Shown piece by piece: positions 4,288 to 43,883 of a stretch of DNA of 60,233 bases (the first letter of the stretch is position 1; the number at the start of each line of letters is the position of its first letter). The stretch covers positions 1-60,233 of the forward strand of contig JANXXE010000012.1 in assembly GCA_025350815.1 (NCBI GenBank), given 5' to 3'. Made by a program: the position numbers and the translations under genes. Source of the DNA: Myxococcales bacterium (GTDB lineage Bacteria; Myxococcota_A; Polyangia; Fen-1088). The notes beneath the pieces were generated by a model. The model was not told the origin of the DNA. It made no database searches and saw nothing but the letters and a program-made list of their open reading frames with translations.

Positions 4288-4440
4288 CCGGTCGACGCTA
4301 CACCACGGGTGAAGCAAATTTCCGATCAATTTGGATTGCGATTGCGAATAACAAAAGACCAATCACAATCACCGTGCAAAATGAAACCTTATTCAATTGC
4401 CCGGACATACCCGGGTTTGTCGGCACCAAGCGGTCCTGCT

Positions 4441-5526: not shown

Positions 5527-5613
5527 TCACATGGTGTTGGAAGTGCAGACAGATACCGGGACAAAAAAGGCACCCGGGCGCCGGGGGAATGGGCGTTCCC
5601 GTCGGGCTGCCAG

Positions 5614-14805: not shown

Positions 14806-14853
14806 GTGCCAGACGACGCGAGGGTGGCAAAGGGGGGTACAATCAAACACCCC

Positions 14854-15645: not shown

Positions 15646-15713
15646 GCTGTCAGTCCGCAGGAGGCGTTCGGGGGACAAGCGGCGAGGGGGTGCCGGCGTC
15701 TTTCTTGCGCAGA

Positions 15714-18977: not shown

Positions 18978-19103
18978 GTTAATAGGCCCTTGCGGGCATT
19001 CCAGGTCTTTACTAGAGGCCCCAGGCGAAAGCAAACAACGGGGCCGCGTGGTTCAGAATATCGATTCAAGAAATTCGGGGCGCCGTCCGATGACGCAGGG
19101 ACC

Positions 19104-22461: not shown

Positions 22462-23387
22462 GGATTGCGTGCCTGACCGCCGTGTACGAACTGGCCCGCC
22501 GCGACCAGCGTGTCGTATTCATCGGGTCCGACATCACCAAGCGCAGCCTGGAAAAGTTCGCCGCCGAGATCCCGGAACGTTTCTTCATGGAGGGCATCTA
22601 CGAGGGCCACCTGGTCGGGATGGCGGCCGGCCTGGCGCTGTCGGGCAAGATCCCTTACCTGAACACGATCAATACCTTTCTGACCCGTCGCTGTTACGAG
22701 CAGATCCTGATCGACGTGGGGCTGCACAATCTGCCGGTTCGGTTGCTGGGCAGCGGCGGCGGCGTGGTCTATGCGCCGCTGGGTCCCACGCACATTGCCA
22801 ATGAAGATCTGGCCATTCTGCGGGTCATTCCCAATATGACCGTCGTCGCCCCCTGCGACGCCGAGGAAATGAAAAGGTTGATGGCGCAAACGCTGGATTG
22901 GCCGGGGCCCATCCACGTGCGCATCGCCAAGGGGGGCGACAAGGTCGTGTCGTCGGATGCGCGTCCGTTTCGCATTGGCCAGGCGATCCCGCTGTGCGAC
23001 GGTGCCGACGTTCTGTTGATCACGACGGGCATCACGGCGCAGATCGCATTGGAGGCTTCGGCATTGCTGGCCACGTCTGGCGTCGACGCCGGCGTGCTGC
23101 ACGTGCATACCATCAAGCCCCTGGACGCCGAGCAGATCGCATCCCGCGCGCGGCCGGTGCGCGTGATTGTGACCGTCGAGGAGCATTCGGTCATCGGCGG
23201 CCTTGGTAGTGCGGTGGCCGAGCTGTTGATGGAGACCGGCGCGGGGCAGGGCAAGCGTTTTGCGCGGGTGGGGTTTCCGGATGTGTTCACCGACGAGCTT
23301 GGTTCGCAAAACGAGATCATGGGCAAGTACGGCATCGCCGCGCCGGCTGTTGCTGCACGGGTCCTGGCGTTGCTGGCCGGCCCGTAG
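22458..23387 (+). CDS. Transketolase-like enzyme, C-terminal (pyrimidine-binding) subunit
   Basis: The 309-residue chain begins at ATG 22458. It contains the pyrimidine-binding segment FMEGIYEGHLVGMAAGLAL, with Glu45/Glu49 candidates for activating the ThDP aminopyrimidine. The transketolase C-domain follows (VLLITTGITAQIALEA, VLHVHTIKPLD, VTVEEHSVIGGLGSAV). It completes the active site with the preceding subunit. Its stop is 1 bp from that of the converging membrane protein gene. Confidence 0.92.
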   Translation: MRIACLTAVYELARRDQRVVFIGSDITKRSLEKFAAEIPERFFMEGIYEGHLVGMAAGLALSGKIPYLNTINTFLTRRCYEQILIDVGLHNLPVRLLGSGGGVVYAPLGPTHIANEDLAILRVIPNMTVVAPCDAEEMKRLMAQTLDWPGPIHVRIAKGGDKVVSSDARPFRIGQAIPLCDGADVLLITTGITAQIALEASALLATSGVDAGVLHVHTIKPLDAEQIASRARPVRVIVTVEEHSVIGGLGSAVAELLMETGAGQGKRFARVGFPDVFTDELGSQNEIMGKYGIAAPAVAARVLALLAGP

Positions 23388-26546: not shown

Positions 26547-27268
26547 TCAACCGCGCCATTTCCCCGATGCGATCGCCTCCTGCGCCTCGGCATACCGGGC
26601 CGGGGAATCGATGGCGCAGCGGTAACCTGTCAGTGCAAAGCCGTACAGGCGCTCGTAAGCGACGTTGGGGGCGTATACGTCCCGGGGCAGATCCACGGGG
26701 ATTTCGTCGGGGATCCGCTGCAAGAACCGCCGGCCGAGCAGTTGAAGACCCGAATTGACCCAGGGATCGCGGATGGTGGTCGCGTCGCGCTCGGAGGGAC
26801 GTTCGATGAACGCGGTGATCCGCCCGTCTGGATCCATCTGGACGACGCTGTTTGAGCTGGACCGTCGGTGCAGCAGCAGCGTTGCCGCCGCCTGGTTGCG
26901 CCGGTGCGCCGCCCGCAACGCACCCAGATCCTGATCCACCAGCAAGTCGCCGTACACCACCAGAAGGTCGTCGTCCTGCCCAAGGAACCCTGTGACGCTT
27001 TTGACGGTTCCCGCTGTTCCGAGGAGGCTCGCTTCGGCAAAGTAGTGAATGGCCTGACCGTCCGTGCTGCGATCTCCGAAATGTTCGCGAATGCAGGCGG
27101 CGCCATGATGCAGGTTGATGGCGATCTGGTCGTAGCCATGCCGCGCGAGATAGCGCAGCGTGTGTGCCAGCAGTGGCTGACCGGCCAGTGGCAGCATGGG
27201 CTTGGGGGTCGCGACCGTCAGTGGCCCCAGTCGTTTTCCGTAGCACCGCACAGCACCAACGCCTTCAT
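26547..27268 (-). CDS. HddC-like sugar-1-phosphate nucleotidylyltransferase, frame broken at N-terminus
   Basis: The ATG at 27268 overlaps the GmhB-like stop (ATGA) and reads MKALVLCG. The frame must then shift by one base near 27243-27247 to reach YGKRLGPLTVATPKPMLPLA, which together form the normal nucleotidyltransferase start. A GTG at 27251 would give 234 residues but loses part of the glycine-rich loop. Other motifs are intact: VYGDLLVD (metal Asp), AFIERP and NSGLQLL. The family makes NDP-sugars; next to GmhA/GmhB it probably activates heptose-1-phosphate. It is a 1-bp deletion mutant or a sequence error. Confidence 0.8.
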
Positions 27269-27852
27269 GGCGCGTCCCCGTGGCGCTGTCCCAGTATCAG
27301 GTCGACGGCGGCCTGCAGGTCCGGGCAGGTGTGTGCGGGCTGCACTGTCGCCCAGGGCCCGGCGCCTTCGATGGGCGGGGCCTGGTGCTGGCCTGTTTCC
27401 ACAAGGATGGTGCGGCAGCCGACCCGCGCCCCGGCCGCGATGTCCGACGGACGATCCCCGATGGCAAAGCTGTCGGTCAGGTCTATCCCCAGTTCACGCG
27501 CGGCGCGTTCGAACAGGCCGCTGCGGGGTTTGCGGCAGTTACACGCCACGCGGTAGACAGGCAGGGTCGCGTTGGGGTGGTGCGGGCAGAAATAGAATCG
27601 ATTGACGATGGCGCCGCTGGCGGCGTGCAACAACTGCGCAAGATCCTGGTGGGCTTGCACGACGTCCGGTTCGCTGGCCAGTCCCCGCGCCACGACGGTC
27701 TGGTTCGAAACCACGACGACCAGATAGCCGCTGTCATTGAGGCGGCGGATGGCCAGGGCCGCCCGGGGCAGCAGCACCAGATCTTCCTGTCGCGCGGTGG
27801 GCCCGACGTCACGAAGGATGACGCCGTCGCGGTCCAGAAAGACAGCCCTCAC
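27265..27852 (-). CDS. gmhB: D-glycero-D-manno-heptose 1,7-bisphosphate 7-phosphatase (GmhB-like, HAD)
   Basis: GTG 27852 overlaps the GmhA stop by 4 bp and gives the typical start RAVFLDRDGV; an in-frame ATG at 27870 is also possible. Asp7 and Asp9 of DRDG are the HAD nucleophile and acid. SNQ is motif II, and the Cys/His zinc loop FYFCPHHPNA...CNCRKP is diagnostic of GmhB. IGDRPSDIAAG is motif IV. The enzyme removes the C7 phosphate from heptose bisphosphate. The 195-residue length fits the family. Confidence 0.9.
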   Translation of the reverse strand: MRAVFLDRDGVILRDVGPTARQEDLVLLPRAALAIRRLNDSGYLVVVVSNQTVVARGLASEPDVVQAHQDLAQLLHAASGAIVNRFYFCPHHPNATLPVYRVACNCRKPRSGLFERAARELGIDLTDSFAIGDRPSDIAAGARVGCRTILVETGQHQAPPIEGAGPWATVQPAHTCPDLQAAVDLILGQRHGDAP

Positions 27853-28427
27853 GGATGGTCCAGCACCCATTGCCGCAGGTAAGCGATCAGCAAATGATCG
27901 AACATCATGTGGACGTCCTCGACCGGTTCGTACTGATCGGAGGGGACAACCACGGCCGTATCGACCAGCGTTGCCGCTGCGCCCCCGCCCTTGCCCAGAA
28001 AGGCGATGGTGGAAAGACCCATCCGCCGCGCCTGTTCGATGCCGCGCAGAATGTTGGGGCTGTTGCCGCTGGCGGAAATGGCGATGAAGACGTCGTCGAC
28101 CCGGGCCTGGGCGGCCAGTGGCGCGACGAAGATTTCCGCAAACGCCGAATCGTTCGCGATCGCCGTCATGGACGGGACATTGTCCGTCAACGCCGAGACG
28201 CGAAAGCCGCGCCGTCCGGTCTGCGCAATACCCCACAGCAGATCGCTTGCCATATGCGACGCGGTGGCGGCGCTGCCGCCGTTGCCCGCAATGAAGACAT
28301 GCCTTTGTTCCTGGTAGGCCGTCTCGAGGATCGCCATGACACGCGTGAGGGGTTCAAGCGGCAGTGCCGTGAGGACCCGCTTGAGGTTGTCGACATAGTC
28401 CCGGGCGAAGGTCAGCCGTTTGTCCAT
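27849..28427 (-). CDS. gmhA: Sedoheptulose-7-phosphate isomerase (GmhA, SIS domain)
   Basis: The 192-residue length equals that of GmhA. The SIS phosphosugar-binding region is IAGNGGSAATASHMASDL, with AISASGNSPN in the second phosphate loop and a C-terminal VEDVHMMFDHLL helix that supplies the catalytic His. The enzyme converts sedoheptulose 7-phosphate to D-glycero-D-manno-heptose 7-phosphate, the first committed step to nucleotide-heptose. It lies 3 bp after the kinase/nucleotidyltransferase gene and overlaps GmhB. Confidence 0.9.
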   Translation of the reverse strand: MDKRLTFARDYVDNLKRVLTALPLEPLTRVMAILETAYQEQRHVFIAGNGGSAATASHMASDLLWGIAQTGRRGFRVSALTDNVPSMTAIANDSAFAEIFVAPLAAQARVDDVFIAISASGNSPNILRGIEQARRMGLSTIAFLGKGGGAAATLVDTAVVVPSDQYEPVEDVHMMFDHLLIAYLRQWVLDHP

Positions 28428-28430
28428 CGT

Positions 28431-29960
28431 TCAGCCCAAGATATTTTCGACGAAATCGAACAGGGCCTCGGGCGTTATCGACTGCTGATTTCCAATGAAC
28501 CGCACGGCCAGGGCGCCCACCGCATTGCCAATGAATCCCAGCAGCTCTGTCTCGATTCCGGCCTGCGCGCAGGGTGCCGTGATGGACAGGAAGGCGTCGC
28601 CGGCGCCAATCGTATCCACGACGTTGCGCGACAACACTGGCACGGCGGCCGGTGGCTTGCCGCGGCGGTGGGTCAACGATCCCAGATGTCCCAGGGTGAC
28701 AGTCAGGTATTCAGCCGACAGATCATGGGCGACAGAGCTGGCCAGTTCGGCCGCGGGTCGCTGGCGATCGCGACAGGCCATCTGCAATTCCTGTAGATCG
28801 ATGCAGACGTAGTCCACGCGCGGGTAGCGCGTGATGACGTTGAACCCATAGTTGATGCTGTTCAGCTGGCTGTTGACCGCCAGGAACTTCGAGCGGCGAC
28901 ACAGAACCTCGACCATGTTGGCGCTGACGGCCCCCTGGCCGAAGTCGGCCACCACGACGACGTCGTGCTGGTCGATCAGCGTCGACAGGCGTCGGCAGAT
29001 CTGAATGTCTATGTCGGTGGGCAGCGGCGCATCGTTGAAGAACGACACCTCGAACAGATTTCGCGCCATGAACTTGCGGATGTAGCGCCGCTTGACCGTG
29101 GTGGGGCCGTCGGGTCGCACGAACAGGTCCGCCCTTACGTTGGGCAGAAGGTGGCTGCGAACGAAATCCTCGCGCGTGTCGGCGGCACCCAGGCACGTCA
29201 GCAGGTGGACGGTGTCGCAGAAACCCGCCAGGTGATTGGCCACGGCCAGAATTCCGCCAGCGTGAGCCTCGGATTGAAGAAATTGCGCCGCAATGACGGG
29301 TGACTTTTGCGGCATGCCGTACGGACGGCAGAAATGGTATTCGTCGATGATGGTGTCGCCGACGACCAGCACCTTCAGGCCGCGCAGGTCTTTCAGGGTT
29401 CCGATGACGTCTTTCGCGCTGTAGCGACTGCGGAAACCCCGAAGGAACGCGTCGGCCTCTCCCGGTGTCGACTCGGCCACACGATCCGCCGAGCCCTGGA
29501 TCTCAGCTTCGTCGAGCACGATCAGCTTGCCACCACCGTTGCCCACGGCCGACCGCTCGGTGCCGTCCTCCTCGCGCTCGCTGGACAGTCGGATGCCGTC
29601 AACGCCCTGGGCAAATACGTCCGGGCGCAGGGCCTGGATGGAACCCAGTGCCGACCACGCGGTCGCCGGCACGACGAGATCGACGAATGGTAGCGAGGCA
29701 AGGGTCAAGGCGCGCACGTTCTGGTCAAGCGTGGCCCGTCGCCGCCCCCATGCGGGATCGATGTCTGGCCGCAACGAGACGATCAGGACGTCGCCCTCGG
29801 CGCGCGCCCGTGACAGGCGCTGAAGGTGACCCGAGTCAAGCAGATCGAAAAGGCCGTGCACGACAACCACGCGCCGCGATTCGCGCTGCCACTGGTCGCG
29901 CTGCGCGGTGGCTGCGGCCAGCGGCATGATCTTCGTCGGGCGAAGGGGCGCGTCCGTCAT
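28431..29960 (-). CDS. HldE-like protein with cytidylyltransferase domain first, PfkB kinase second
   Basis: ATG 29960 overlaps the upstream epimerase stop by 4 bp and gives 509 residues. Residues 30-180 are a nucleotidyltransferase domain of the cytidylyltransferase type, with HGLFDLLDSGHLQRL at 35-49. The HxGH signature reads DSGH because Asp42 replaces the first His. Residues 200-509 are a PfkB kinase, starting VLVVGDTIIDEYHF and ending with DTIGAGDAF (449-457; catalytic Asp). In E. coli HldE the kinase comes first. It should phosphorylate heptose-7-phosphate; the nucleotidyltransferase half may be impaired or altered. Confidence 0.85.
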   Translation of the reverse strand: MTDAPLRPTKIMPLAAATAQRDQWQRESRRVVVVHGLFDLLDSGHLQRLSRARAEGDVLIVSLRPDIDPAWGRRRATLDQNVRALTLASLPFVDLVVPATAWSALGSIQALRPDVFAQGVDGIRLSSEREEDGTERSAVGNGGGKLIVLDEAEIQGSADRVAESTPGEADAFLRGFRSRYSAKDVIGTLKDLRGLKVLVVGDTIIDEYHFCRPYGMPQKSPVIAAQFLQSEAHAGGILAVANHLAGFCDTVHLLTCLGAADTREDFVRSHLLPNVRADLFVRPDGPTTVKRRYIRKFMARNLFEVSFFNDAPLPTDIDIQICRRLSTLIDQHDVVVVADFGQGAVSANMVEVLCRRSKFLAVNSQLNSINYGFNVITRYPRVDYVCIDLQELQMACRDRQRPAAELASSVAHDLSAEYLTVTLGHLGSLTHRRGKPPAAVPVLSRNVVDTIGAGDAFLSITAPCAQAGIETELLGFIGNAVGALAVRFIGNQQSITPEALFDFVENILG

Positions 29961-30961
29961 GACGATCTCGGTGCGGGCGCCAGGTATTCGAACCATTGCT
30001 GCGTGGCCTGCGCGATCGTCGGTGGCGTCCAGACCGGTGCGTCGCGGAAGGATTCGATGTGGTCCAGCAGAATGCGCACGCCGCTTTCGAAGGACACCTG
30101 GGGCTGCCAGGGCAGCAGCCGGCGAATCTTGCTTGTGTCGGCCAGGGTTGAGTCGGGCTCGCCGGGGCGCTTCGGGATGTGAACAACGTCGCCGCCCAGC
30201 AACTGCGCCAGGTGGGCCACGCTGACCGTGCGGCCCGACCCCACATTGAGGACCTCGCCCACCAGATCGGAAGCCGCTGCCGCAACGAAGGCGTTTACGA
30301 CGTCACTGACAAAGGTGAAATCGCGCGTCTGACTGCCGTCGCCCACGATGGTCAGGGGTTGTCCGTGCAGCTTCTGCGCGAGAAAGACACCGAAAACGGC
30401 GCCGTAGGTTCCGGCCGTGCGCGCCCGCGGGCCATAAACATTGAACAGGCGCAGCGATACAACGGGCAACCGGTATAACTGCGACCAAAATAGGGCCATC
30501 GATTCGCCCATCCACTTGCCAAGCGCGTAGGGGTACTGGGGCCTGGCGGGCGCCTGTTCTGGGGTCGGCACGACGTCGGGCAATCCGTAACACGACGACG
30601 ACGCCGTATAGATGAAACGCCGCACGCCCGCCGCGCGACTGGCTTCCAGAACGTTGATGGTTCCGTCGACGTTGGCGCGGTGATACGCAATTGGCCGCTC
30701 GACCGAGGGCACGATGTCCGCGAGGGCGGCCAGGTGAAACGCCCAGTCGCATCCGACAAAGTGCGGCGCGATGGCGGAAAAATCTGTCACGTCCGCGTGG
30801 ACAAAGTGCAGGCGTGCGTGATCGCGCCAGGCCGCCAGATTCTCCAGTCGCCCGGTGGCCAGATTGTCCAAAACGACGACGTCGTGCCCGTCTGCCAACA
30901 GCTGATCGGTAAGGTGCGAACCGATGAAGCCCGCGCCGCCCGTGACCACGCAGCGACTCAT
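29957..30961 (-). CDS. NAD-dependent nucleotide-sugar epimerase/dehydratase (extended SDR)
   Basis: The 334-residue protein has the Rossmann motif TGGAGFIGSHL (about 7-17), DNLATG after strand 2, FHLAALADIVPS, TASSSCYG (catalytic Ser) and the YxxxK pair in YPYALGKWMGE. RLFNVYGPRA and a C-terminal GSGRTVSV complete the GalE/WbpP-like family. It likely epimerises or oxidises an NDP-hexose or NDP-heptose. It sits inside the heptose operon with 4-bp overlaps on both sides. Confidence 0.9.
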   Translation of the reverse strand: MSRCVVTGGAGFIGSHLTDQLLADGHDVVVLDNLATGRLENLAAWRDHARLHFVHADVTDFSAIAPHFVGCDWAFHLAALADIVPSVERPIAYHRANVDGTINVLEASRAAGVRRFIYTASSSCYGLPDVVPTPEQAPARPQYPYALGKWMGESMALFWSQLYRLPVVSLRLFNVYGPRARTAGTYGAVFGVFLAQKLHGQPLTIVGDGSQTRDFTFVSDVVNAFVAAAASDLVGEVLNVGSGRTVSVAHLAQLLGGDVVHIPKRPGEPDSTLADTSKIRRLLPWQPQVSFESGVRILLDHIESFRDAPVWTPPTIAQATQQWFEYLAPAPRSS

Positions 30962-31965
30962 TGAAGGCCGAGATCCTTCATCGTGCGCACGTTGAAGTAG
31001 CGATTGTCGGTCAGGGCCTTCGGCAGCCTCCCATCCGTGAGGGCCGCTGCCAGTTCCGCGACCGCTTCCTCGATGCTGTGCTGCGCGCGGAAGCCCAGCC
31101 CCCGCGCAATCTTGTCGGATGAAATGTGGTACGAGCGCTGATCGTTCGTGGGTTCGGTGATGATCGACACGCGGTCGCGGCCCACGACGGTGCGGACTTT
31201 TTCCGCCAGCTCGTTCACGGTGAAGTTGCCGTAGCCCACGTTGAAGATTTGCCCCGCAATGGGTTCGGCAGGCGCGTCGAGCAGCCGTTCATATACGTGG
31301 ACCATGTCGCGGATGTGCAGATTGGGGCGCAGCTGGTTGCCACCGTGAACGATAATCTTTCCTGTATTGACCGCATGATTGGTGAGGATGTTGACGATGA
31401 CGTCCAACCTTTGCCGGGGTGCGTACCCACACACCGTCGCGGGCCGCAGGGTCACGGTCAAGAAATCGGGTGACTGATAGCGGGCAAGGACCTCCTCGCA
31501 CATGGCCTTGTAGCGGGAATAGTCCGTCAGGGGCGACAGGGGACTTTCCTCGCGCACGTCGGGTTCGGCCTTGACACCGTAGACGCTGGATGACGACGCA
31601 TAGATGAATCGGCGCACCCCCGCAGCGCGCGCTTGCCGTACCAGGGGTTCGAACGCGTCATAGTTGACGGATTTGCCGAGGGCGGCGTCCAGATCGAAAC
31701 TGGGATCGTTGGAAATGCAAGCCAGATGGATGACGGAATCGCATTCGTGAAGCGCGGTGGCACACAGACGCAGATCGCGGATGTCTCCCCGAAGCAGTTC
31801 AAGGCCAGCAATCGGATGGCCGCCAAGAACATCGTCGCCGTAGATAAACAGGTCCAGCACCCTGACCCGGTAGCCGCGGGCGAGCAGGCGCGGGACGAGC
31901 GCGCTGCCCACGTAACCCGCACCCCCGGTTACCAGCACCAAACGATCCTTCACGTGCAATGGCAT
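30958..31965 (-). CDS. NAD-dependent nucleotide-sugar epimerase/dehydratase (extended SDR)
   Basis: ATG 31965 gives 335 residues beginning just before LVLVTGGAGYVGSALV; an upstream ATG at 32004 is less likely. Motifs are DLFIYGDDV, IHLACISNDPS, YASSSSVYG and YSRYKAMCEE (Tyr/Lys pair). The HLACISNDPSFD segment is typical of the group that includes GDP-6-deoxy-heptose and dTDP-sugar enzymes in surface-glycan loci. It is the first gene of the heptose operon, so 31966-32106 carries its promoter. Confidence 0.9.
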   Translation of the reverse strand: MPLHVKDRLVLVTGGAGYVGSALVPRLLARGYRVRVLDLFIYGDDVLGGHPIAGLELLRGDIRDLRLCATALHECDSVIHLACISNDPSFDLDAALGKSVNYDAFEPLVRQARAAGVRRFIYASSSSVYGVKAEPDVREESPLSPLTDYSRYKAMCEEVLARYQSPDFLTVTLRPATVCGYAPRQRLDVIVNILTNHAVNTGKIIVHGGNQLRPNLHIRDMVHVYERLLDAPAEPIAGQIFNVGYGNFTVNELAEKVRTVVGRDRVSIITEPTNDQRSYHISSDKIARGLGFRAQHSIEEAVAELAAALTDGRLPKALTDNRYFNVRTMKDLGLQ

Positions 31966-32039
31966 GCAGGTAGTTTCAGAACAACCCCCGTGCGACAATA
32001 CCATCGTCACGGGCGTCCCGGAAGGCGTCCCGCGCCGCA

Positions 32040-32091
32040 TGTTCGGTCAACGTGTTCGACCAACGTGTTCGACCAACCTGTTCGGTCAGCC
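32040..32091. repeat. Four tandem 13-bp repeats in a divergent promoter region
   Basis: The units are TGTTCGGTCAACG (32040), TGTTCGACCAACG (32053), TGTTCGACCAACC (32066) and TGTTCGGTCAGCC (32079). They lie in the 141-bp gap between the heptose operon (minus) and the methyl-sugar operon (plus), ending 15 bp before the ATG at 32107. The sequence is not coding on either strand. Such spacing fits a cooperative regulator site controlling both operons, but no regulator is known. The rest of the gap shows no other clear signal. Confidence 0.7.
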
Positions 32092-32106: not shown

Positions 32107-32655
32107 ATGAATCCCCTCTGCGACGCCCAGCTTTTTCGATTTGACGACAGCGGGCACAGCCCGGCCTTCTTCAGCGTTGCGCCTGCGGCCGTGGCCACAG
32201 CCGACCTGGTGGTTGCCCTGCGCGAGGCGGCGACGCGTTTGCGCGTACCTACCCTCCGGGTCTGCCTTCACGACAGCCGGGAGGCGACCCTGCAGGACAT
32301 GATTGTCCTGGTGAACGAAGGCGCCTTTTGCCGGCCCCACCGGCACCCCACTCGGGACGAGAGTTACCACGCTGTCGATGGTGCCGCGGACTTGCTGCTT
32401 TTTGCGGATGCGGGACAGATAACCCGGACGGTTCGGCTTGAACCGGGCAGTCAGCCCGGCGCGCGCCTGCCGGCGAATCTTTTTCACGTGCTGATTCCGC
32501 GCGGCCTGCAATTCATCTACCGCGAGTTTCGTGCCGGGCCCTTTCGTCCCACGGACAGCGAATTTCCGCCGTGGGCGCCCGACGGCAGCGACGGGTCGGA
32601 GGCGGCAGGCTACATGGCGGCGCTGCGGGAAAGGGCCGGCCGTGGCCTACCTTGA
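32107..32655 (+). CDS. WbuC-like cupin protein
   Basis: The 182-residue protein has a cupin core: FCRPHRHPTRDESYHAVDG (metal-type His/Glu set), LLLFADAGQITRTVRLEPG and a closing ANLFHVLIPRGLQFIYREF. WbuC-family cupins occur in O-antigen loci, and some act as sugar isomerases or epimerases, but no function is firmly known. It heads the plus-strand operon, directly after the 13-bp repeats, and overlaps the following methyltransferase by 14 bp. Confidence 0.75.
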   Translation: MNPLCDAQLFRFDDSGHSPAFFSVAPAAVATADLVVALREAATRLRVPTLRVCLHDSREATLQDMIVLVNEGAFCRPHRHPTRDESYHAVDGAADLLLFADAGQITRTVRLEPGSQPGARLPANLFHVLIPRGLQFIYREFRAGPFRPTDSEFPPWAPDGSDGSEAAGYMAALRERAGRGLP

Positions 32656-33304
32656 TTTCATCGGAAGGCTGCACGGTGCCACCACGCGCGACTATGTCCA
32701 AAGGGTGGTCGACCACGACAAGGCCGCGTGCGCCGAGGTGGCGTTGCAGTACGGGCAGGACTACTGGGACGGGGATCGCAAGTTCGGTTACGGAGGTTAT
32801 CGCTATGACGGCCGCTGGCTGCCCGTCGCTGAACAGCTTGCCGCGCATTACGGGCTCAAGGCCGGGGACAAGGTCCTTGACGTTGGTTGTGGCAAGGCGT
32901 TCCTGCTGCACGAACTGACGCGCGCGGTTCCGGGAATCGTGGTGGCGGGCATCGACATATCCCCCTACGCTGTCGCCCACGCGAAAGAGGAAGTGCGGCC
33001 GCTGGTTCGGGTGGGCAGCGCGACCAGTCTGCCCTGGCCCGATCGAAGCTTCGACCTGGTGATTTCCATTGGTACGGTCCACAACCTGAAGAACTTCGAA
33101 CTGCGCCAGGCCCTGGCCGAGATTGAACGCGTCGGCAAGGACAAGAAGTACATCGTCGTCGAGTCCTTTCGAAACGAGCGCGAAAAGGCCAACCTTCTGT
33201 ACTGGCAGCTGACCTGCCGATCGTTCTACGCGCCGGAGGAATGGCAGTGGTTCATGAAGGAAAGCGGCTACACGGGCGACTTCGGCTGTATCTTTTTTGA
33301 ATGA
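32642..33304 (+). CDS. SAM-dependent methyltransferase (class I)
   Basis: GTG 32642 gives 220 residues starting AYLDFIGRLHG; other starts lie in a basic, non-conserved leader. The SAM motifs are complete: VLDVGCGKAFLL (motif I), GIDISPYAVAHA, VGSATSLPWPDRSFDLVISIG and a later LAEIERVGK. A role in methylating a nucleotide sugar or glycan intermediate is inferred from its place between the cupin and the C-methyltransferase. It overlaps the next start by 4 bp. Confidence 0.88.
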   Translation: MAYLDFIGRLHGATTRDYVQRVVDHDKAACAEVALQYGQDYWDGDRKFGYGGYRYDGRWLPVAEQLAAHYGLKAGDKVLDVGCGKAFLLHELTRAVPGIVVAGIDISPYAVAHAKEEVRPLVRVGSATSLPWPDRSFDLVISIGTVHNLKNFELRQALAEIERVGKDKKYIVVESFRNEREKANLLYWQLTCRSFYAPEEWQWFMKESGYTGDFGCIFFE

Positions 33305-36568: not shown

Positions 36569-37276
36569 ATGCCGACGGTTCTCATCACCGGTGCCAGCCG
36601 GGGTCTTGGCTGCGAATTCGCGCGGCAGTACGCAGCGGATGGGTGGAAGGTGATAGCGACCTGTCGTTCGCCCGGGGGCGCGGGTGCCCTGCAGGGTCTG
36701 TCGGGCGACGTTGACGTCCGTCAGATGGACATCACCGAGGCGCCGCAAATAGATGCTTTGGCGCGCGATCTGGGTACCCGACCTGTCGACCTTCTGATCA
36801 ACAACGCCGCCATTCATGGTCCGCGCGACGCGGGCGCAAGCTTCGGCGCCCTGGATGTGGCCGCGTGGATGGAGGTCATGCGGGTCAACGCGCTGGCGCC
36901 CCTGAAAGTGACCGAGGCCTTCTTGCCGCACGTGCGCGCTGGCGGGCAACGCAAGATCGTCTTCATCTCCAGCCGCGCCGGCAGCATTGCCGAACGCGGC
37001 GCCTTGCCCCACCACCGGCCGGGCGGGCCCTACGTCTACCGCAGCAGCAAGGCGGCCCTGAACGCCGGCGCCAAGGCCCTGGCCTTTGATCTGGGGCCGC
37101 AGGGAATCAGCGTCGTGGTCCTGCACCCCGGCTGGGTCAAGACAGAAACCGGTGGCTGGGACGCACCGGGTGACGCCGCCAGCAGCGTCACGGCGATGCG
37201 GAAGGTCATCGATGCGGCGACACCGACGGACAACGGTCACTTTCGCAACTTCGACGGCGCGGAGATCCCCTGGTGA
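36569..37276 (+). CDS. Classical short-chain dehydrogenase/reductase
   Basis: The 235-residue protein has TGASRGLG (7-14), DLLINNAAIHGP, a Ser in FISSRAG and the catalytic Tyr/Lys in YRSSKAAL. The C-terminal HPGWVKTE is typical of the family. It is probably an NAD(P)-dependent carbonyl reductase. The operon position suggests a sugar or lipid-carrier substrate, but this is inference. The downstream glycosyltransferase overlaps by 4 bp. Confidence 0.88.
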   Translation: MPTVLITGASRGLGCEFARQYAADGWKVIATCRSPGGAGALQGLSGDVDVRQMDITEAPQIDALARDLGTRPVDLLINNAAIHGPRDAGASFGALDVAAWMEVMRVNALAPLKVTEAFLPHVRAGGQRKIVFISSRAGSIAERGALPHHRPGGPYVYRSSKAALNAGAKALAFDLGPQGISVVVLHPGWVKTETGGWDAPGDAASSVTAMRKVIDAATPTDNGHFRNFDGAEIPW

Positions 37277-38010
37277 CCATCCGGCCGTCGGTATCGTTCA
37301 TTGTGCCCGCCCTCGACGAGGAGCGCCTGATTGAGGGCACGGTTGACGAGATCAGAAAAGCGGTCGCGGCCAGCCGCATCGACGCCTACCAGATGGTTCT
37401 CGTCGACGATGGCAGCACCGACGGGACGGGCGCCATCATGGACGGGCTGGCCGCGGGCGACGCGCGCATCACTGTGCTGCACAACGCGCAGAATCTGGGA
37501 CTCGGCGGCGCCTACAGGCGGGGCGTGACGGCGGCCAGCTGCGACCACGTCATGATGGTTGTGGGTGACAACGTCATGCCGGCCTCTGATATCGGTCTGA
37601 TTCTGGATCGCCTGGGCCAGGCTGACATTGTCCTGGGTTATCTGACCAATCCCTACCTGCGTCCACTTGGCCGCCGCGTGGGATCGCGGGGCTTCACGAC
37701 GGTGGTCAACCTGCTGTTTGGTTTGAAGATGCACTACTACCAGGCGATGGTTCCGCGCAGGTCACTATTGGAAAAGATCACGATTGCCACCAATAGCCAC
37801 GCCTTTCCCGCCGAGGTTGTGGTCAAGCTGGTCAAGGCCGGCGCCTCTTTTGTTGAGGTCGGGCTGCCAAACACACCGTCAAAAAGGGGCAATTCCGTTG
37901 CCCTGGAGCCCCGCCGCCTGATGTCGGTGTTCAAGACTTTGGTTCGCCTGAATCGCGAAATCAGGCGACCCGGAGCCATTCCCCGCGGGGTTGGGCAACG
38001 ATTGCCCTGA
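37273..38010 (+). CDS. Family 2 glycosyltransferase (dolichyl-phosphate sugar synthase-like)
   Basis: GTG 37273 gives 245 residues. The GT-A motifs are VSFIVPALDEE, VLVDDGSTDGTG (Asp pair) and HNAQNLGLGGAYRRG; the DxD-like acidic motif is VVGDNVMP. It has the length and order of DPM1/polyprenyl-phosphate glycosyltransferases with no C-terminal membrane helices. It probably loads a sugar onto polyprenyl phosphate, supplying donors for the GT-C membrane proteins at 23.4-26.5 kb. Confidence 0.85.
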   Translation: MTIRPSVSFIVPALDEERLIEGTVDEIRKAVAASRIDAYQMVLVDDGSTDGTGAIMDGLAAGDARITVLHNAQNLGLGGAYRRGVTAASCDHVMMVVGDNVMPASDIGLILDRLGQADIVLGYLTNPYLRPLGRRVGSRGFTTVVNLLFGLKMHYYQAMVPRRSLLEKITIATNSHAFPAEVVVKLVKAGASFVEVGLPNTPSKRGNSVALEPRRLMSVFKTLVRLNREIRRPGAIPRGVGQRLP

Positions 38011-38068
38011 ATGGGGGCCGCTGTTCCCTTATGATCAAGGGGGATTCACGCCGGATGGATGTCTGCAG

Positions 38069-40108
38069 ATGAAGAGACAGATTTTTTTCGCCGATCTTAC
38101 GCACACTGCCCAGGGCATTTCCGCGGCAACGTTCCCCCTGGGCGCCAGTTACGTCATGGCCTACGCGCGACAGGAACTTGGCGCTGAATTCGACTTTCGT
38201 CTTTTCAAATTCCCCGACGTATTCGAACAGGCACTGCTTCGGGATAGCCCGTCACTTTTGGCCTTTTCCCACTACAGCTGGAACAGCGAGTTGGCCTGCA
38301 AGATGGCTGAATTGGCCAAGGCCCGGCAGCCCGGTCTGGTCGTGGTCTTCGGGGGCCCGAACTTCCCGACCGACGCTGACGAAAAGGCCCAGTTTCTAGG
38401 GCGCCACCGGGCGGTTGATTTCTACGTCGAGCTCGAAGGCGAGCTGGGCTTTGTCGATCTGGTCCGCTCGCTTGACGCTTCGGCCTTCGACCCGTCAGCG
38501 CTGAAGGCCAGCGGCGTGGCCCCGTTGAACACCACCTATTTGCGCGGCGAGCAGCTGGTCAGCGGCCCGCAGCGACGGATCGACGACATCAATGTGATTC
38601 CTTCGCCCTATTTGACCGGCGTGCTGGATGAATTCTTCGACCTGCCGCTGGTCCCCATGGTCGAAACCACGCGCGGCTGTCCTTTCGCGTGCACGTTCTG
38701 CGCCGACGGATTGGCAATCAAGAACCGGGTCAGCCGCTTCAAGGCCGACCGTACGCGCGAGGAACTGTCGTACATCGCCGCGCGCGTCAAGAACATCGAC
38801 GAATTGATCATCACCGATCTGAACTTCGCGATGTACGCCGGGGACGTCGAGACCGCCCGGATGTTGAGTGACCTTCGCAGAACGCACAACTGGCCGACGC
38901 TGCTGTCCGCGTCCGCCGGTAAGAACAAACCCCACCGCACGATCGAGGTCGCCAGCATCCTGGGTGGCGCGTGGACGCTGGGCGCGTCGATCCAGTCGAC
39001 CGATGCGGGCGTCCTGCGATCGATCAAGCGCAGCAACATTTCCAGCGCCGCCTACCAGAAGCTGATCGAGTACGGCAACACCCTGGAGACCAGCAAGACC
39101 CATTCGGAGGTCATCCTGGCGTTGCCGGGCGACAGCAAATCCAAGCATTTCGAATCACTGCGTTTTGGCGTCGAGAACAACGTGAACAGCCTGCGCATGT
39201 TCCAGGCGATCCTGCTGGTCGGCACCGAAATGGCATCGCGGGCGACGCGGACGGCCTTTGGTCTGCTGACGCGATTTCGCACCATTCCCGGCTGCGTCGG
39301 CATCTACGAATTCTTCGGCCAAAAGCATTCTGTCGCCGAGATCGAGGAGATCATCGTGGGCAGCCAGTCCCTGCCTTTCGAGGATTACCTGGAATGCCGG
39401 GTGATGAACCTCATCGTCGAAACCTTCCACAACAACGCCTTGTTCGAGGAGGTCTTTGCCCTGGTGCGGGCGCTGGGCGCATCGGCCTTCGACTGCCTGC
39501 TTCGGATGAAGGAACACCTGGAAGACGCGGAGCCCACGCTGCGGCAAATCGTCGCTGAATTTCGCAGGCAAACCACGATCAATCTGTTCGACAGCTACGA
39601 TCAGGCCAGGGCGTTTGTGCTGACCCCATCGGTTATCGAGAAATACATCGGTGGCGAGATGGGCATCAACGAATTGCTGGTCCACCGCGCGTTGCTGTAT
39701 CGCGAATTCGACGGGATTTGCCGCGTCCTGTTCGATGCCGTTCGCGCGACCCTGCACCCGCGTGGCCTGCTGACGGAACAGGTGGGCGCGTATTTGGACG
39801 AATTGCAGCGGTTCACCATCTTGCGCAAGAAGGGGATTTTCGACGACCAGGACACCGTCAAGACGGGCGAATTCCGTACGGACTTCGAGGCTGTCAAAAA
39901 CGCCCGTTACCGCATCGACCCCAATCAATGGACCGGCGTCCGGCCGCCGCGGACCCTGTATTTTTTCCACGACGGCCAGCAGAAGCACCACATTGCCAAC
40001 CAGATGCGGATCTATGCGCGGACGCCGATTGGTCTTGGACGCCTCATCCAGCGCTCGAACCTCAAGATGATGTATCGGTCGTTCTCGCCGTCGCCGCCTG
40101 CAAAATAA
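38069..40108 (+). CDS. Radical SAM protein with B12-binding-like N-terminal domain
   Basis: ATG 38069 is preferred over an in-frame ATG at 37991 inside the previous gene's end. The 679-residue protein starts with a Rossmann-like domain resembling cobalamin-binding domains (about 1-120, VVVFGGPNFP) but without a clear DxHxxG. The radical SAM motif RGCPFACTFC follows (Cys204, Cys208, Cys211). A long C-terminal region (about 400-679) has no recognised function. The family carries out C-methylation, epimerisation or rearrangements. Its tail overlaps the converging partner gene by 47 bp. Confidence 0.85.
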   Translation: MKRQIFFADLTHTAQGISAATFPLGASYVMAYARQELGAEFDFRLFKFPDVFEQALLRDSPSLLAFSHYSWNSELACKMAELAKARQPGLVVVFGGPNFPTDADEKAQFLGRHRAVDFYVELEGELGFVDLVRSLDASAFDPSALKASGVAPLNTTYLRGEQLVSGPQRRIDDINVIPSPYLTGVLDEFFDLPLVPMVETTRGCPFACTFCADGLAIKNRVSRFKADRTREELSYIAARVKNIDELIITDLNFAMYAGDVETARMLSDLRRTHNWPTLLSASAGKNKPHRTIEVASILGGAWTLGASIQSTDAGVLRSIKRSNISSAAYQKLIEYGNTLETSKTHSEVILALPGDSKSKHFESLRFGVENNVNSLRMFQAILLVGTEMASRATRTAFGLLTRFRTIPGCVGIYEFFGQKHSVAEIEEIIVGSQSLPFEDYLECRVMNLIVETFHNNALFEEVFALVRALGASAFDCLLRMKEHLEDAEPTLRQIVAEFRRQTTINLFDSYDQARAFVLTPSVIEKYIGGEMGINELLVHRALLYREFDGICRVLFDAVRATLHPRGLLTEQVGAYLDELQRFTILRKKGIFDDQDTVKTGEFRTDFEAVKNARYRIDPNQWTGVRPPRTLYFFHDGQQKHHIANQMRIYARTPIGLGRLIQRSNLKMMYRSFSPSPPAK

Positions 40109-40508
40109 GGGCGCGCCAGGATCGGTCGGCGTCGCGGCGCCGGGCCGCATCCACGGCGTATAGAAAAGGAAACAGGGCGTCCAACGCAGCCGCGTCCCGG
40201 ATGGCCAGACCCTCGCGCGCGAAGTGCGCCTCCAGGTTCAATGTGGCGACGATCGTCTTCAGCAGCTTGAAGTTGAAAGCCGGGCCATAGGCGAACTGGT
40301 TGATTGTGAAGAAGACGACGCCCTGAATGCCGGGATAACGGCGCAGCTTGGCCTGGATGAAGGCCTGCGAGCCCAGGGTGAGGATTTCCTCGGCACCGTA
40401 GAAAGTGATCGCGCCGCCCGCCTTCGCCGCGCGATCGCGAATCGCCAGATGCTGCAACGGCTGCGGGGCCGGCAGGCTGGCGTCGATGCAGGCGTAAAAG
40501 GATTTCAT
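40062..40508 (-). CDS. Sporadic carbohydrate cluster protein, LIC12192-like (copy 1)
   Basis: ATG 40508 overlaps the oxygenase stop by 4 bp. The 148-residue product has PAPQPLQHLAIRDRAAKAG, GAEEILTLGSQAF and GIQGVVFFTINQFAYG, matching the arrangement of copy 2 at 42861 and of the small 'sporadic carbohydrate cluster' family (TIGR04323-like, recalled from memory). The biochemical role is unknown; members accompany a 2OG-Fe(II) oxygenase. This copy is more divergent at its N-terminus than copy 2. It overlaps the radical SAM gene tail-to-tail. Confidence 0.75.
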   Translation of the reverse strand: MKSFYACIDASLPAPQPLQHLAIRDRAAKAGGAITFYGAEEILTLGSQAFIQAKLRRYPGIQGVVFFTINQFAYGPAFNFKLLKTIVATLNLEAHFAREGLAIRDAAALDALFPFLYAVDAARRRDADRSWRALILQAATARTTDTSS

Positions 40509-41272
40509 CCCAGTAACTGGCGCTTGTGGAACGCAAGCCCGTGTTGCGACAGGGGCGACAGCGACAGCAGGCGGAAATATTCCAAGGGATCCTTGAGGCC
40601 ATTGGGCGAAAACAGCCCCTTGTAGCGCAGATTCACCGACCAGCGCGTTTCGGTCTCCTGGTTCACGCGCGAGCCGTGGTAAAGGCCGGTCCAGAAGAAC
40701 AGCGCGCTGCCGAAGGGCACGTCCACCCCCTGGCCCGCCGCCAGGCAGTGCGCCTCGAAGCCGGCCCAATCATCGTTGTGTGCCTTCAACAATTCCTGCG
40801 CGGCGGCTGTCTTCTGCCTGTCCAGGATGTACAGGCTCTTGGTGGCGTGGCAATCCACCAGGGGCACCCACACGACGACCTCGTACGGGGAATTGCTGGG
40901 GGCGTCGCGGTGCAGTTCTGATGGATCGGGATCGTGCGGCTGCTGAATGACAAGGTTGGTTGTCTTTTGTACCAGCAGGTCGGGACCCAGCAGTCCCCTG
41001 ACGGTCGGGCCGAAAGCCTCGAAGATCAGGGCGCCCGCATCGACCTCGGCGGTGCAGCGTTCGATCAGACGCAGGCGCAGGTCGTTCAGGCGCGCGCCCG
41101 TCACGCCGTGCTGGTGAAACTGATTGAAGAATTCCTCGGCATTGCCGGACCGGGCGTCGAAGATCTCCTGGGCGATGTGAAAGATCTGGTGTCGCAGTCT
41201 TGTCAATGGCGCCAGATCAGCCGCCGGCGTGACCGCATAGCCCAGGTGAAGAAAATCGTCGTCTGTCGGCAT
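40505..41272 (-). CDS. PhyH-type 2-oxoglutarate/Fe(II) oxygenase (copy 1)
   Basis: The 255-residue protein has the HxD...H facial triad: LHRDAPSNSPYEVVVWVPL (His121, Asp123) and GLYHGSRVNQ (His199), with Arg210 in ETETRWSVNLR for 2-oxoglutarate. The segment SPYEVVVWVPLVDCHATKS matches copy 2 at 42053. Members of the sporadic-carbohydrate-cluster oxygenase group (TIGR04324-like, from memory) probably hydroxylate a sugar or its lipid carrier. It starts 1 bp after the SDR stop and overlaps its partner by 4 bp. Confidence 0.85.
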   Translation of the reverse strand: MPTDDDFLHLGYAVTPAADLAPLTRLRHQIFHIAQEIFDARSGNAEEFFNQFHQHGVTGARLNDLRLRLIERCTAEVDAGALIFEAFGPTVRGLLGPDLLVQKTTNLVIQQPHDPDPSELHRDAPSNSPYEVVVWVPLVDCHATKSLYILDRQKTAAAQELLKAHNDDWAGFEAHCLAAGQGVDVPFGSALFFWTGLYHGSRVNQETETRWSVNLRYKGLFSPNGLKDPLEYFRLLSLSPLSQHGLAFHKRQLLG

Positions 41273-41273
41273 G

Positions 41274-42029
41274 CTAGCTGGCGCCCCCGTCGAGGCCCAT
41301 CACGGTGCCCGCGGCGAAGGACGCCAGTTCCGAGCACAGGAAGGCAACGGCCGGGGCAATTTCGTCGACCTGACCCAGGCGCCCGGCCGCGACGTGGTGC
41401 CGGAAGTATTCCGCCAGCGCCGCCGGATCGGTCTGCTTCAACTGGGCAAAATGGCGGCCCTCAAGTTCGATGGCCCCCGGTGCCACGGCGCTGATGACGA
41501 CGTTGTCCGGCGCGACCGCTCGGCCGACGCTTTTGACGTAGGCGTTCAGCGCCGCCTTGGCCACCGCGTACGCGGGATAACCGTGGCTGGTACTGCCCGA
41601 CGTCGACGAAATGTGCACGATGCGTCCCCACTTCCGGCTGGTCATTGCAGGAATGAATTGTCGATTGAACTCGGCGGCGATACCCAGGTTGAAACGCCAC
41701 ACCCGATTCCAATCGTCGGCGGGCGCAAGCGGCGCGGACACACCCAGGGATCCGCCCAGGTTGTGCACGATGATCGCGGGCGCGCCACACTGTGTTCGAA
41801 TCTGCCCCGCAAGTTCCTCGATGTCGGCGGTCATCAGGTCTGCGCCGACGCACCAGTGGCGCGTGTGCCCGCCGGGCAACTGTTCGCACAACGATTCCAG
41901 CGTCGCCAGCGTCCTTCCCAGAAGGATCAGCCGGGCGCCTTCCTTGGCCAACTCCACGGCGATGCCACGGCCGATGCCGCGGCCGGGGCCGGTGACCAAA
42001 GAGACTCTGCCCTCGATCCCCAGGTTCAT
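41274..42029 (-). CDS. Classical SDR oxidoreductase between the two oxygenase pairs
   Basis: ATG 42029 gives 251 residues beginning LGIEGRVSLVTGPGRGIGRG; upstream in-frame codons overlap the divergent oxygenase gene and are not used. Motifs include HNLGGSLG, ISSTSGSTSHGYPAYAVAKAA (catalytic Ser/Tyr/Lys) and a C-terminal GTVMGLDGG. It resembles 3-oxoacyl-ACP reductase-like SDRs and likely reduces or oxidises a carbonyl on the sugar product of the oxygenase. It is the first gene of the minus-strand set. Confidence 0.88.
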   Translation of the reverse strand: MNLGIEGRVSLVTGPGRGIGRGIAVELAKEGARLILLGRTLATLESLCEQLPGGHTRHWCVGADLMTADIEELAGQIRTQCGAPAIIVHNLGGSLGVSAPLAPADDWNRVWRFNLGIAAEFNRQFIPAMTSRKWGRIVHISSTSGSTSHGYPAYAVAKAALNAYVKSVGRAVAPDNVVISAVAPGAIELEGRHFAQLKQTDPAALAEYFRHHVAAGRLGQVDEIAPAVAFLCSELASFAAGTVMGLDGGAS

Positions 42030-42034
42030 GGTTT

Positions 42035-42044
42035 GGATATATCC
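42035..42044. promoter_or_regulatory. Perfect 10-bp palindrome in a 23-bp divergent gap
   Basis: GGATATATCC is identical on both strands and lies centrally in the 23 bp between the ATG of the SDR (42029, minus) and the ATG of oxygenase copy 2 (42053, plus). The GATATAT core could serve as a -10 element for both directions, in which case both mRNAs would be nearly leaderless. It could instead be a repressor half-site pair. Both are inference from position. Confidence 0.45.
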
Positions 42045-42052
42045 TACCGTAA

Positions 42053-42868
42053 ATGTCCCAGAATATGCCGCCCCAGACCCGTCGGCCACACGCGGCCGCG
42101 TTTGTGCAAGACGGATTCTGCGTGGTGCCGTCGCAGCAGGTGTCCATCTTGGAATCCGTCCGGGCCGATGTCGTCGCGTATCTGCGTTCGATGACAAAGG
42201 GTGGCGCAGGCTTGACGGACGAGGCCTACCTGAACGCCTTTCACAAATTCTCGGCGCCCACGGCCCTCAATGATGTGCGCGTTGGCGTGCACAAGACGCT
42301 TGGGTCCTCCGAAGTCTTCCGGCAAAAGGTTTTCGCCTGCGCCCGCCACCACCTGGAAGATCTGGTGGGCAACGAAATCGTCATGCAACGGCAGGTGGGC
42401 GTCGTCATTCAGGCGCCGCGGGATCCGGCGGGATTGCTGGCGCTGCACACCGACTGCTGGTCGGGCTGCTCGCCCTACGAGGTTGTCCTGTGGATTCCGC
42501 TGGTCGACGTGCACGACACGAAATCCATGTACATCTGCGATCGCGCGCAGACCGAACGTCACCTGCGCGAGATCAAAGCCGGCCCTGCACCGGAAAGCAC
42601 GGCGGCCCTGGCGCGCAGGGTGCGGCCCGGGGCACAGGATCTTCGGATGAAATTCGGCGACCTGTTGTTCTTTTCGTCGATTCTCATGCACGGGGCCGAG
42701 GAAAATCAGACGGACGAGACGCGGTTTGTACTCAACGTGCGCTTCAAAAGCCTGTTTTCGCCCTATGGCACGAAGGCCATTGGCGAAACGTTTTTGCCCG
42801 TGAACTACCTGCCCGCGACGGAGGTCGGCCTGGATTACGAAGGCGAATTCGGGGCCGTTCATGCCTAA
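42053..42868 (+). CDS. PhyH-type 2-oxoglutarate/Fe(II) oxygenase (copy 2)
   Basis: The 271-residue protein carries the facial triad His132/Asp134 (LHTDCWSG) and His213 (LMHGAEENQT), with Arg224 (DETRFVLNVRFKSLFSPYG). SPYEVVLWIPLVDVHDTKS is nearly the same as in copy 1, so the two are paralogues in opposite orientation. A second start at 42065 is possible. It overlaps its small partner by 8 bp. It likely hydroxylates a carbohydrate intermediate. Confidence 0.85.
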   Translation: MSQNMPPQTRRPHAAAFVQDGFCVVPSQQVSILESVRADVVAYLRSMTKGGAGLTDEAYLNAFHKFSAPTALNDVRVGVHKTLGSSEVFRQKVFACARHHLEDLVGNEIVMQRQVGVVIQAPRDPAGLLALHTDCWSGCSPYEVVLWIPLVDVHDTKSMYICDRAQTERHLREIKAGPAPESTAALARRVRPGAQDLRMKFGDLLFFSSILMHGAEENQTDETRFVLNVRFKSLFSPYGTKAIGETFLPVNYLPATEVGLDYEGEFGAVHA

Positions 42869-43298
42869 CGGTTTTCTCGGCTACAACTTTGGCGGGCCCA
42901 GCCGCGGGGGCTTCGTGCCGCAGCGGCTGCAAAATCTTTGCATCCGCGACCACGCCGCACGCCATGGTCTGGTGTTGTCGTTTTCGGTGTCCGAGTATTT
43001 CGACGCGGCGCCGGCGCTGATGCTGTTCTCGCAGTTCGAACACATCGGGGCGCTGGACGGGCTGATCTTTTTCTCCCTGGCCCTGCTGCCCGGGGATCGG
43101 AAGCGGCGCGCAGCGTTCTACGCGCGCATGACAGACAGCGGAAAAGAGCTGCATTTCGCCCTGGAAGATCTCGTCTGGACGCCGGGTCGTCCCTGGAAGG
43201 ACATCGATCGCCTGTACCGGCTGCGCTTCGATTCGCGTCCTGACGACAACCGTCGCGCCCTGCAGAAGCTGGTCGCGAAACCGCCCGGCCCGGCGTAG
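42861..43298 (+). CDS. Sporadic carbohydrate cluster protein, LIC12192-like (copy 2)
   Basis: The 145-residue protein shows the family pattern clearly: FLGYNFGGPSRGGFVPQRLQ, NLCIRDHAARHG, SFSVSEYFDAAPALML and DGLIFFSLALLP (TIGR04323-like, from memory). It lacks a signal peptide or membrane helix, so it is cytoplasmic. Function is unknown; it always appears in sugar loci beside the oxygenase. It ends 9 bp before the next lipoprotein gene. Confidence 0.8.
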   Translation: MPNGFLGYNFGGPSRGGFVPQRLQNLCIRDHAARHGLVLSFSVSEYFDAAPALMLFSQFEHIGALDGLIFFSLALLPGDRKRRAAFYARMTDSGKELHFALEDLVWTPGRPWKDIDRLYRLRFDSRPDDNRRALQKLVAKPPGPA

Positions 43299-43307
43299 CA
43301 TGCGCGC

Positions 43308-43883
43308 ATGAAGACGCGCCACCTGTCCCGATTCCTGTTTCTGTCCCTTGCGCCAATTGCGGCAGCCAGCTGTGCCACGCCCACCGCCAGTGCCCCTGCG
43401 GCCCCGCCGCCCGCAGCGGTTGTTGCGGCGGCACCCGCACCAGCCCCCGCTCCTGCACTTGCTGCCGCGGTGTCTAACCCGAACGATCCGATGACCGCTG
43501 TCGGTCCGCCCACCATCGCGTGGAAGGACATGACGAAAGAGCAGAAGAACAAGTTCATGAAGGTGGTGGTCACGCCCCGCATGAAGGAAGTCTTCCAGGC
43601 CTACGACGCCACCGAGTACAAGGTCTTTGGCTGCAAGACCTGCCACGGCAAGGATCCGAAGGCGGTGGATTTCAAGATGCCCAGCGCCGATCTGCACGTG
43701 CTGCCGGCCACCCGCGAAGGGTTCGCCGAGTTGATGCAGAAGGAACCGAAGGCAATGAAATTCATGGCGGGCGAGGTGAAGCCCAAGATGGCGGCGCTTC
43801 TGGGGCTTGAAGACTTCCGCCCCGACAACCCAAAGCCCGACGCCTTCGGCTGTCACGGCTGTCACACCAGCAAGACCCAGTAA
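43308..43883 (+). CDS. Exported c-type cytochrome-like lipoprotein with two CxxCH motifs
   Basis: The 191-residue product has a signal ending AAASC (Cys22), then an Ala/Pro-rich linker to about residue 55. GCKTCHG (near 110) and GCHGCHT (near 183) are heme-c binding CxxCH sites. The mid-region MTKEQKNKFMKVVVTPRMKE matches a small cytochrome-like family common in Myxococcota. It should be an envelope electron carrier or a redox-linked structural protein. It is separate from the carbohydrate operon in function but follows with only 9 bp. Confidence 0.8.
   Translation: MKTRHLSRFLFLSLAPIAAASCATPTASAPAAPPPAAVVAAAPAPAPAPALAAAVSNPNDPMTAVGPPTIAWKDMTKEQKNKFMKVVVTPRMKEVFQAYDATEYKVFGCKTCHGKDPKAVDFKMPSADLHVLPATREGFAELMQKEPKAMKFMAGEVKPKMAALLGLEDFRPDNPKPDAFGCHGCHTSKTQ

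Follow-up and report, generated by a model that had tools for sequence, protein, structure and literature searches.

Two curated protein families are the closest described relatives of the genes studied here: TIGR04324 (SpoChoClust_2, the sporadic carbohydrate cluster 2-oxoglutarate (2OG)-Fe(II) oxygenase; curated cut-off 150 bits) and TIGR04323 (SpoChoClust_1, the LIC12192 family; cut-off 55 bits). In the literature searched, we found no paper naming the "sporadic carbohydrate cluster", LIC12192, TIGR04323, TIGR04324 or SpoChoClust, and no earlier report of the fold of TIGR04323. The poxvirus OPG061 (vaccinia F16) family, which is described as a catalytically inactive serine recombinase (PMC4304020), provides a precedent for a dead serine recombinase. 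We analyzed a 60,233-nucleotide stretch (the window) of a Myxococcales bacterium, which is one contig (JANXXE010000012.1) of a metagenome-like assembly of 226 contigs (GCA_025350815.1). It encodes two oxygenases (Ox1 and Ox2), each with a small partner protein (partner 1 and partner 2), and a short-chain dehydrogenase/reductase (SDR) that stands with the first pair. On sequence grounds, the region consists of two paralogous oxygenase-partner units from two old subfamilies, the canonical A type (Ox2 and partner 2) and the B type (Ox1 and partner 1). We consider it moderately probable that these are anciently separated 2OG oxygenase units, each with a matched recombinase-fold subunit that has an accessory or substrate-handling role in sugar biosynthesis.

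Both oxygenases exceed the TIGR04324 cut-off, Ox1 with 170 bits (E 6.5e-50) and Ox2 with 214 bits (E 2.1e-63). The residues for Fe(II) and 2OG are intact in Ox1 (H121, D123, H199, and R210) and in Ox2 (H132, D134, H213, and R224), and these H, D, H, and R positions are conserved across the oxygenase family. The SPYEVVxWxPLVD core and the HxD...H triads, which a preliminary description of the locus had reported for both proteins, are indeed common to them. Ox1 and Ox2 are predicted to be complete 2OG/Fe(II) oxygenases. They have the same HxD...H plus R(+11) layout as the PhyH 2OG oxygenases (phytanoyl-CoA dioxygenase, PF05721). However, at the Pfam cut-off of 22 bits only Ox2 is accepted (27.2 bits), whereas Ox1 stays below it (18.5 bits), and the substrate is likely a sugar. 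The hidden Markov models (HMMs) built in this analysis split the A type from the B type; Ox1 scores 422 bits with its own B-type HMM and 195 bits with the A-type HMM. Ox1 is a member of a distinct B clade that has a partner type of its own, a distinction that the TIGR04324 model does not make.

Partner 2 is a member of TIGR04323, with 75 bits. No TIGR04323 match was found for partner 1 in searches to E 0.1 and again to E 1. However, partner 1 scores 81 bits with a profile built in this analysis and 219 bits with the B-type HMM. The A and B partner profiles are homologous over 103 columns (hhalign probability 98, E 2.3e-13), and the PQxLQxLxIRDxA pattern is present in both partners, as first described. 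By these profile comparisons, the similarity of partner 1 to the family is well beyond chance. The earlier statement that both partners are LIC12192-like thus holds directly for partner 2, while partner 1 is recognized only by hhalign or by its own profile. The assignment to the "sporadic carbohydrate cluster" stands, since both pairs are members of, or homologous to, the TIGR04323 and TIGR04324 families. The TIGR04323 model fails to detect most B partners. No Pfam family matched the partners, and a sequence search of the PDB returned nothing relevant for them.

The preliminary description regarded the two pairs as a duplicated form. Because the pairs belong to the same families and are adjacent and divergent, they could be read as two redundant copies from a recent duplication at this locus. 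However, Ox1 and Ox2 are 33% identical, while Ox1 shares 43% identity with a Bdellovibrionota protein. In the oxygenase tree, Ox1 groups with B proteins of Bacteriovoracales, Kiloniellaceae, and Magnetospirillum (support 98/92 with the Bacteriovoracales locus L023), and Ox2 is located on the A side, so that the two are not sisters. The exact placement of Ox2 is unsure because of its long branch and unsettled bootstrap. In addition, B pairs occur without A pairs in three genomes (L025, G470, and G877). The grouping of Ox1 with B proteins of other phyla and the position of Ox2 on the A side indicate that the two pairs separated long ago. A recent duplication is therefore extremely improbable, and the word "duplicated" does not hold in that sense.

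A pattern-based scan of about 85,000 genomes yielded 80 relatives; the scan favors proteins resembling the seeds, and Bradyrhizobium is over-represented. All of the adjacent pairs that were scored are matched in type (124 concordant and 0 discordant, including 44 closely related Bradyrhizobium-group loci). TIGR04324 proteins over the cut-off were found in 3 of 379 Myxococcota, 29 of 385 Alphaproteobacteria, and 17 of 291 Bdellovibrionota genomes, where the last two group labels rest on the records of one locus each (L024 and L023, respectively). In the 385 Alphaproteobacteria, 28 genomes contain both families, one contains only TIGR04324, and one contains only TIGR04323 (Fisher p 3e-40). The oxygenase-only genome (G470) actually carries a B partner that TIGR04323 does not detect. 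A survey for further two-pair clusters, as had been suggested, was successful: an A pair and a B pair share one cluster in two other phyla, in Bdellovibrionota (L023) and in Alphaproteobacteria (L024). L024 shares most of the window cluster, including the radical SAM (S-adenosylmethionine) protein (736 bits) and an orthologous SDR. Another genome (G688) carries A and B pairs on different contigs. A 1.2 Mb genome (L201 of G789, 3813-5692 and 14681-15878) shows a different two-pair version, with both pairs of the A type and a distance of about 10 kb between them; here, one partner shares an open reading frame (ORF) with a methyltransferase.

Natural fusions connect the partner with two enzyme types. 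In L008 (3-1241), oxygenase and partner form a single ORF, in which HxD reads HxG. In other loci, the partner shares an ORF with a methyltransferase, either a Methyltransf_13/14-like C-methyltransferase (L003/L055; the type was assigned by eye, by likeness to window proteins) or a homologue of the SAM methyltransferase of the cluster (L054, L201, and L202). Since the partner is naturally fused to an oxygenase or to methyltransferases, its likely role is that of an accessory or substrate-handling subunit.

According to the preliminary description, no activity is known for the partner. This is still true, but a predicted fold can now be assigned. The AlphaFold2 models of partner 2 (pLDDT 84.8, pTM 0.78) and partner 1 (pLDDT 90.5, pTM 0.77) are of good quality. 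The structure models rest on 40 and 27 sequences. When the model of partner 2 was compared with the PDB by VIA-align, the first 25 entries were all serine recombinases (Z 13.1 to 8.6), including 3lhk, which carries just the title "putative DNA binding protein"; the next entry was HflX (7.7). For partner 1, the first 18 entries were all serine recombinases, from Z 12.2 (phiC31 integrase) to 8.8. The margin is smaller here because the next entry, GTPBP6, already has Z 8.7. A Foldseek search of predicted viral proteins (BFVD) with partner 2 had poxvirus OPG061 as its best match (E 1.9e-5), and serine recombinases also ranked at the top. OPG061 likewise has a recombinase fold without catalysis, but it is a eukaryotic-virus protein from an unrelated context.

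The partners lack the catalytic motifs of the serine recombinase catalytic domain (PF00239). The YxRxS motif is present in 28 of 30 resolvases but in none of the 88 partners. A DRxxR-like match occurs in 3 of the 88, never in the right place, and the aligned positions of partner 2 are not D or R. A DNA-binding domain was not seen in the partners, and their gene context is sugar biosynthesis. According to these models, the partners have the fold of a serine-recombinase catalytic domain without its catalytic motifs. Other residues are highly conserved among the 88 partners (partner 2 numbering): Q24 and E102 in 100%, E45 in 98%, Y8 in 91%, and H98 in 88%. In the predicted secondary structure of partner 2, E45 and H98 fall inside a strand or at a strand end. 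Several of the conserved residues appear to be placed in this way, on the side that holds the active site in recombinases. The partners thus seem to be a recombinase fold that was stripped of its catalytic parts and reused in sugar chemistry.

Several results weigh against this interpretation. Foldseek against the PDB also ranks serine recombinases first, yet the best E value is only 0.011. The joined A and B partner profile aligns with 30 resolvases at E 0.0023 and a probability of 13%, which is weak sequence support. Control comparisons with the joined profile gave 0.042 or worse for 13 families and 0.029 or worse for shuffles, and the A or B profile alone (0.032 and 0.037) did no better than the best shuffles. 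Therefore, the partners could have converged on the recombinase fold. No resolvase-family protein was detectable in the genome of this bacterium, which does not suggest a recent local origin of the partners from a resolvase. The pairing itself also has exceptions. Two Pelagibacter loci (L030 and L057) contain a B-like oxygenase without a directly adjacent partner. In the partner-only genome (G638; L212, 5374-6579), the cluster methyltransferase comes right after the partner, and the 11 kb read showed no oxygenase. Such a partner may serve the methyltransferase.

The arrangement in G638, together with the conservation of Q24 and E102 in all partners and the placement of E45 and H98, would also fit a partner that is an enzyme itself. 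With E45, H98, E102, and Q24 at the old recombinase active-site position, it would convert the product of the oxygenase ahead of methylation, perhaps by isomerization or hydrolysis. However, some members have F or R instead of H98, the fold searches show no standout enzyme of this fold besides recombinases, and the fact that the partner is fused to two unrelated enzyme types agrees equally well with binding or scaffolding. We regard an enzymatic partner as unlikely but credible. The predicted fold and the poxvirus precedent could instead suggest a dead recombinase that binds DNA and regulates the cluster. This explanation is highly improbable because the proteins have only about 120-160 amino acids and show no additional domain for DNA binding, because they occur in fusions with biosynthetic enzymes, and because they are matched in type to their oxygenase. 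An oxygenase subunit with the recombinase fold is the interpretation that we prefer.

In the window, both partner genes overlap their own TIGR04324 oxygenase gene, by 8 nt on the plus strand for Ox2 and partner 2 and by an ATGA, shared with the Ox1 stop, that contains the start codon of partner 1. An ORF that extends to 40769 is only an upstream extension of partner 1. The SDR stop is 1 nt from the Ox1 start; thus, the SDR, Ox1, and partner 1 form a tight minus-strand operon. At its end, the partner 1 and radical SAM genes overlap tail to tail by 47 bp (40062-40108). As originally described, the two sets are divergent, with starts 23 bp apart. The gap contains a perfect palindrome, GGATATATCC, of which the window has a single exact copy. 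The palindrome could be a shared symmetric -10 region that gives near-leaderless transcripts in both directions; a promoter scan detected no sigma-70-like promoter in the region. The GC contents of the two units (0.64 and 0.63) are close to that of the window (0.646), and hence there is no compositional mark of foreign origin.

The SDR was assigned to the first pair in the preliminary description, and comparison with other genomes agrees. It is the reciprocal best match of the SDR directly after the B pair of L024 (Kiloniellaceae), with 177 bits vs 90 for the next protein and 176 vs 86 in reverse. Its cofactor motif TGPGRGIG (position 13) and the catalytic S...YAVAK (YAVAK at 154) are intact, as in classical SDRs. 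In Microcoleus, an SDR that is 46% identical to the window SDR follows an A pair (L037). In two Microcoleus loci (L037, 6369-10768; L044, 7956-11723), the order is an A pair, a window-like SDR, and two more distant oxygenases.

The two units lie in a cluster of sugar-nucleotide and transferase genes (about 13.8-43.3 kb). It contains a split transketolase, an HldE-like enzyme, epimerases, an SIS-domain isomerase, C-methyltransferases, a B12 radical SAM protein, and a glycosyltransferase. The features are listed below.

Features of the two units and of the surrounding cluster, in window positions
Feature	Position	Strand	Basis and remarks
HAD-like protein, APH-like kinase, split transketolase N and C	19959-23387	+	Pfam Transketolase_N, Transket_pyr, Transketolase_C, APH; HAD label from reading, no Pfam match
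Sugar-1-phosphate nucleotidyltransferase, GmhB-like, GmhA-like, HldE-like kinase/nucleotidyltransferase, two nucleoside diphosphate (NDP)-sugar epimerase/dehydratases	26547-32040	-	GmhB label likewise from reading
Class I SAM methyltransferase	32654-33304	+	Pfam Methyltransf_31; homologues elsewhere fused to or next to partner
Family 2 (GT2) glycosyltransferase	37273-38010	+	Pfam PF00535; homologues adjoin B pairs in L023, L200
B12-binding radical SAM protein (KedN5-like)	37991-40108	+	Pfam B12-binding, Radical_SAM; NF033712 155 bits, below cut-off 700
Partner 1, B-type LIC12192-like protein	40062-40508	-	148 amino acids (aa); B-type HMM, hhalign, AlphaFold2 model
Ox1, B-type 2OG-Fe(II) oxygenase	40505-41272	-	255 aa; TIGR04324, tree, B-type HMM
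SDR, first gene of B operon	41274-42029	-	251 aa; adh_short_C2 E 3e-36, motifs
Divergent gap between operon starts	42030-42052	.	23 bp; perfect palindrome at 42035-42044
Ox2, A-type (canonical) 2OG-Fe(II) oxygenase	42053-42868	+	271 aa; TIGR04324, tree, conservation
Partner 2, A-type LIC12192 family protein	42861-43298	+	145 aa; TIGR04323, AlphaFold2 model

The neighbors of the two types differ. The HAD-like/APH-like/transketolase module usually accompanies A pairs, and the HldE-like enzyme and epimerases are also conserved with them. This conservation of transketolase, HldE-like enzyme, and epimerases indicates an activated heptose-like or higher-carbon sugar. The B pair of L200 (G877) adjoins a GT2 and a radical SAM protein (779 bits) that resemble window 37273-40108. 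Homologues of the radical SAM gene are thus found next to a B pair in L200 and within the L024 cluster. A homologue of the SAM methyltransferase is present in 31 of 35 non-Bradyrhizobium loci and in all 44 Bradyrhizobium-group loci.

The preliminary description had proposed two different hydroxylation steps on one glycan. Because the A and B types differ in sequence and in gene neighbors, and because B occurs without A in three genomes, two different chemical steps are the better reading, and hydroxylation is plausible for them. However, three B loci (L025, L197, and L200) show no transketolase module in the stretch read, and A and B therefore need not act on the same sugar. Each partner would bind its own oxygenase as a dedicated subunit that presents or gates the sugar substrate, possibly through the conserved patch of Y8, Q24, E45, H98, and E102 (partner 2), close to those strand ends that carry the active site in recombinases. 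In the A unit, a C-H bond of a heptose-like or higher-carbon sugar from the transketolase/HldE module may be oxidized. The B unit may oxidize either another position or another residue. The SDR, possibly after the hydroxylation as first proposed, would interconvert alcohol and ketone at or near the B-unit position.

The oxygenases could also perform an oxidative cyclization or another 2OG reaction instead of a simple hydroxylation; the subunit pairing would be unchanged. Profile searches of the PDB gave weak matches that include phytanoyl-CoA dioxygenase, AndA, SyrB2, and "oxidase/hydroxylase" entries (4xc9, E 0.74), but these are not significant. A change from HxD to HxG is known from Fe/2OG halogenases, and the fused relative in L008 has it. 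However, Ox1 and Ox2 retain the Asp of HxD, and we consider a reaction other than hydroxylation rather doubtful.

Because 44 Bradyrhizobium-group loci have A pairs, we asked whether the cluster is linked to bradyrhizose, an O-antigen sugar of Bradyrhizobium with an unusual structure. This idea was dropped because no connection could be made. The published candidate cluster in photosynthetic strains has 11 genes, and that paper does not mention a transketolase. Three other features of the window were observed. In the HldE-like enzyme (28431-29996), the nucleotidyltransferase domain precedes the kinase domain, which is the reverse of E. coli HldE. An ORF of 1106 aa (15714-19034) reads, by eye only, like a carbamoyltransferase with a polysaccharide deacetylase domain. 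Right after partner 2 (43308-43883) lies a gene for a small exported-looking protein with two CxxCH motifs, possibly a c-type cytochrome; its family matches are weak.

Tentatively, TIGR04323 and its unrecognized B branch could be domesticated serine-recombinase domains that now serve as subunits of 2OG oxygenases acting on sugars and, in some cases, of methyltransferases, with no DNA involved. They would form a two-branch system with a matched pseudo-recombinase for each branch. TIGR04323, a named but functionally blank family, gains a predicted fold and a testable role. The oxygenase family gains a second branch, whose partner escapes current annotation. If the partner is an oxygenase subunit, the serine-recombinase fold would have been recruited into carbohydrate metabolism, and the matched pairs and natural fusions are ready for testing. 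For the cluster as a whole, a possible product is an unusual higher-carbon sugar that forms part of the surface polysaccharides of bacteria.

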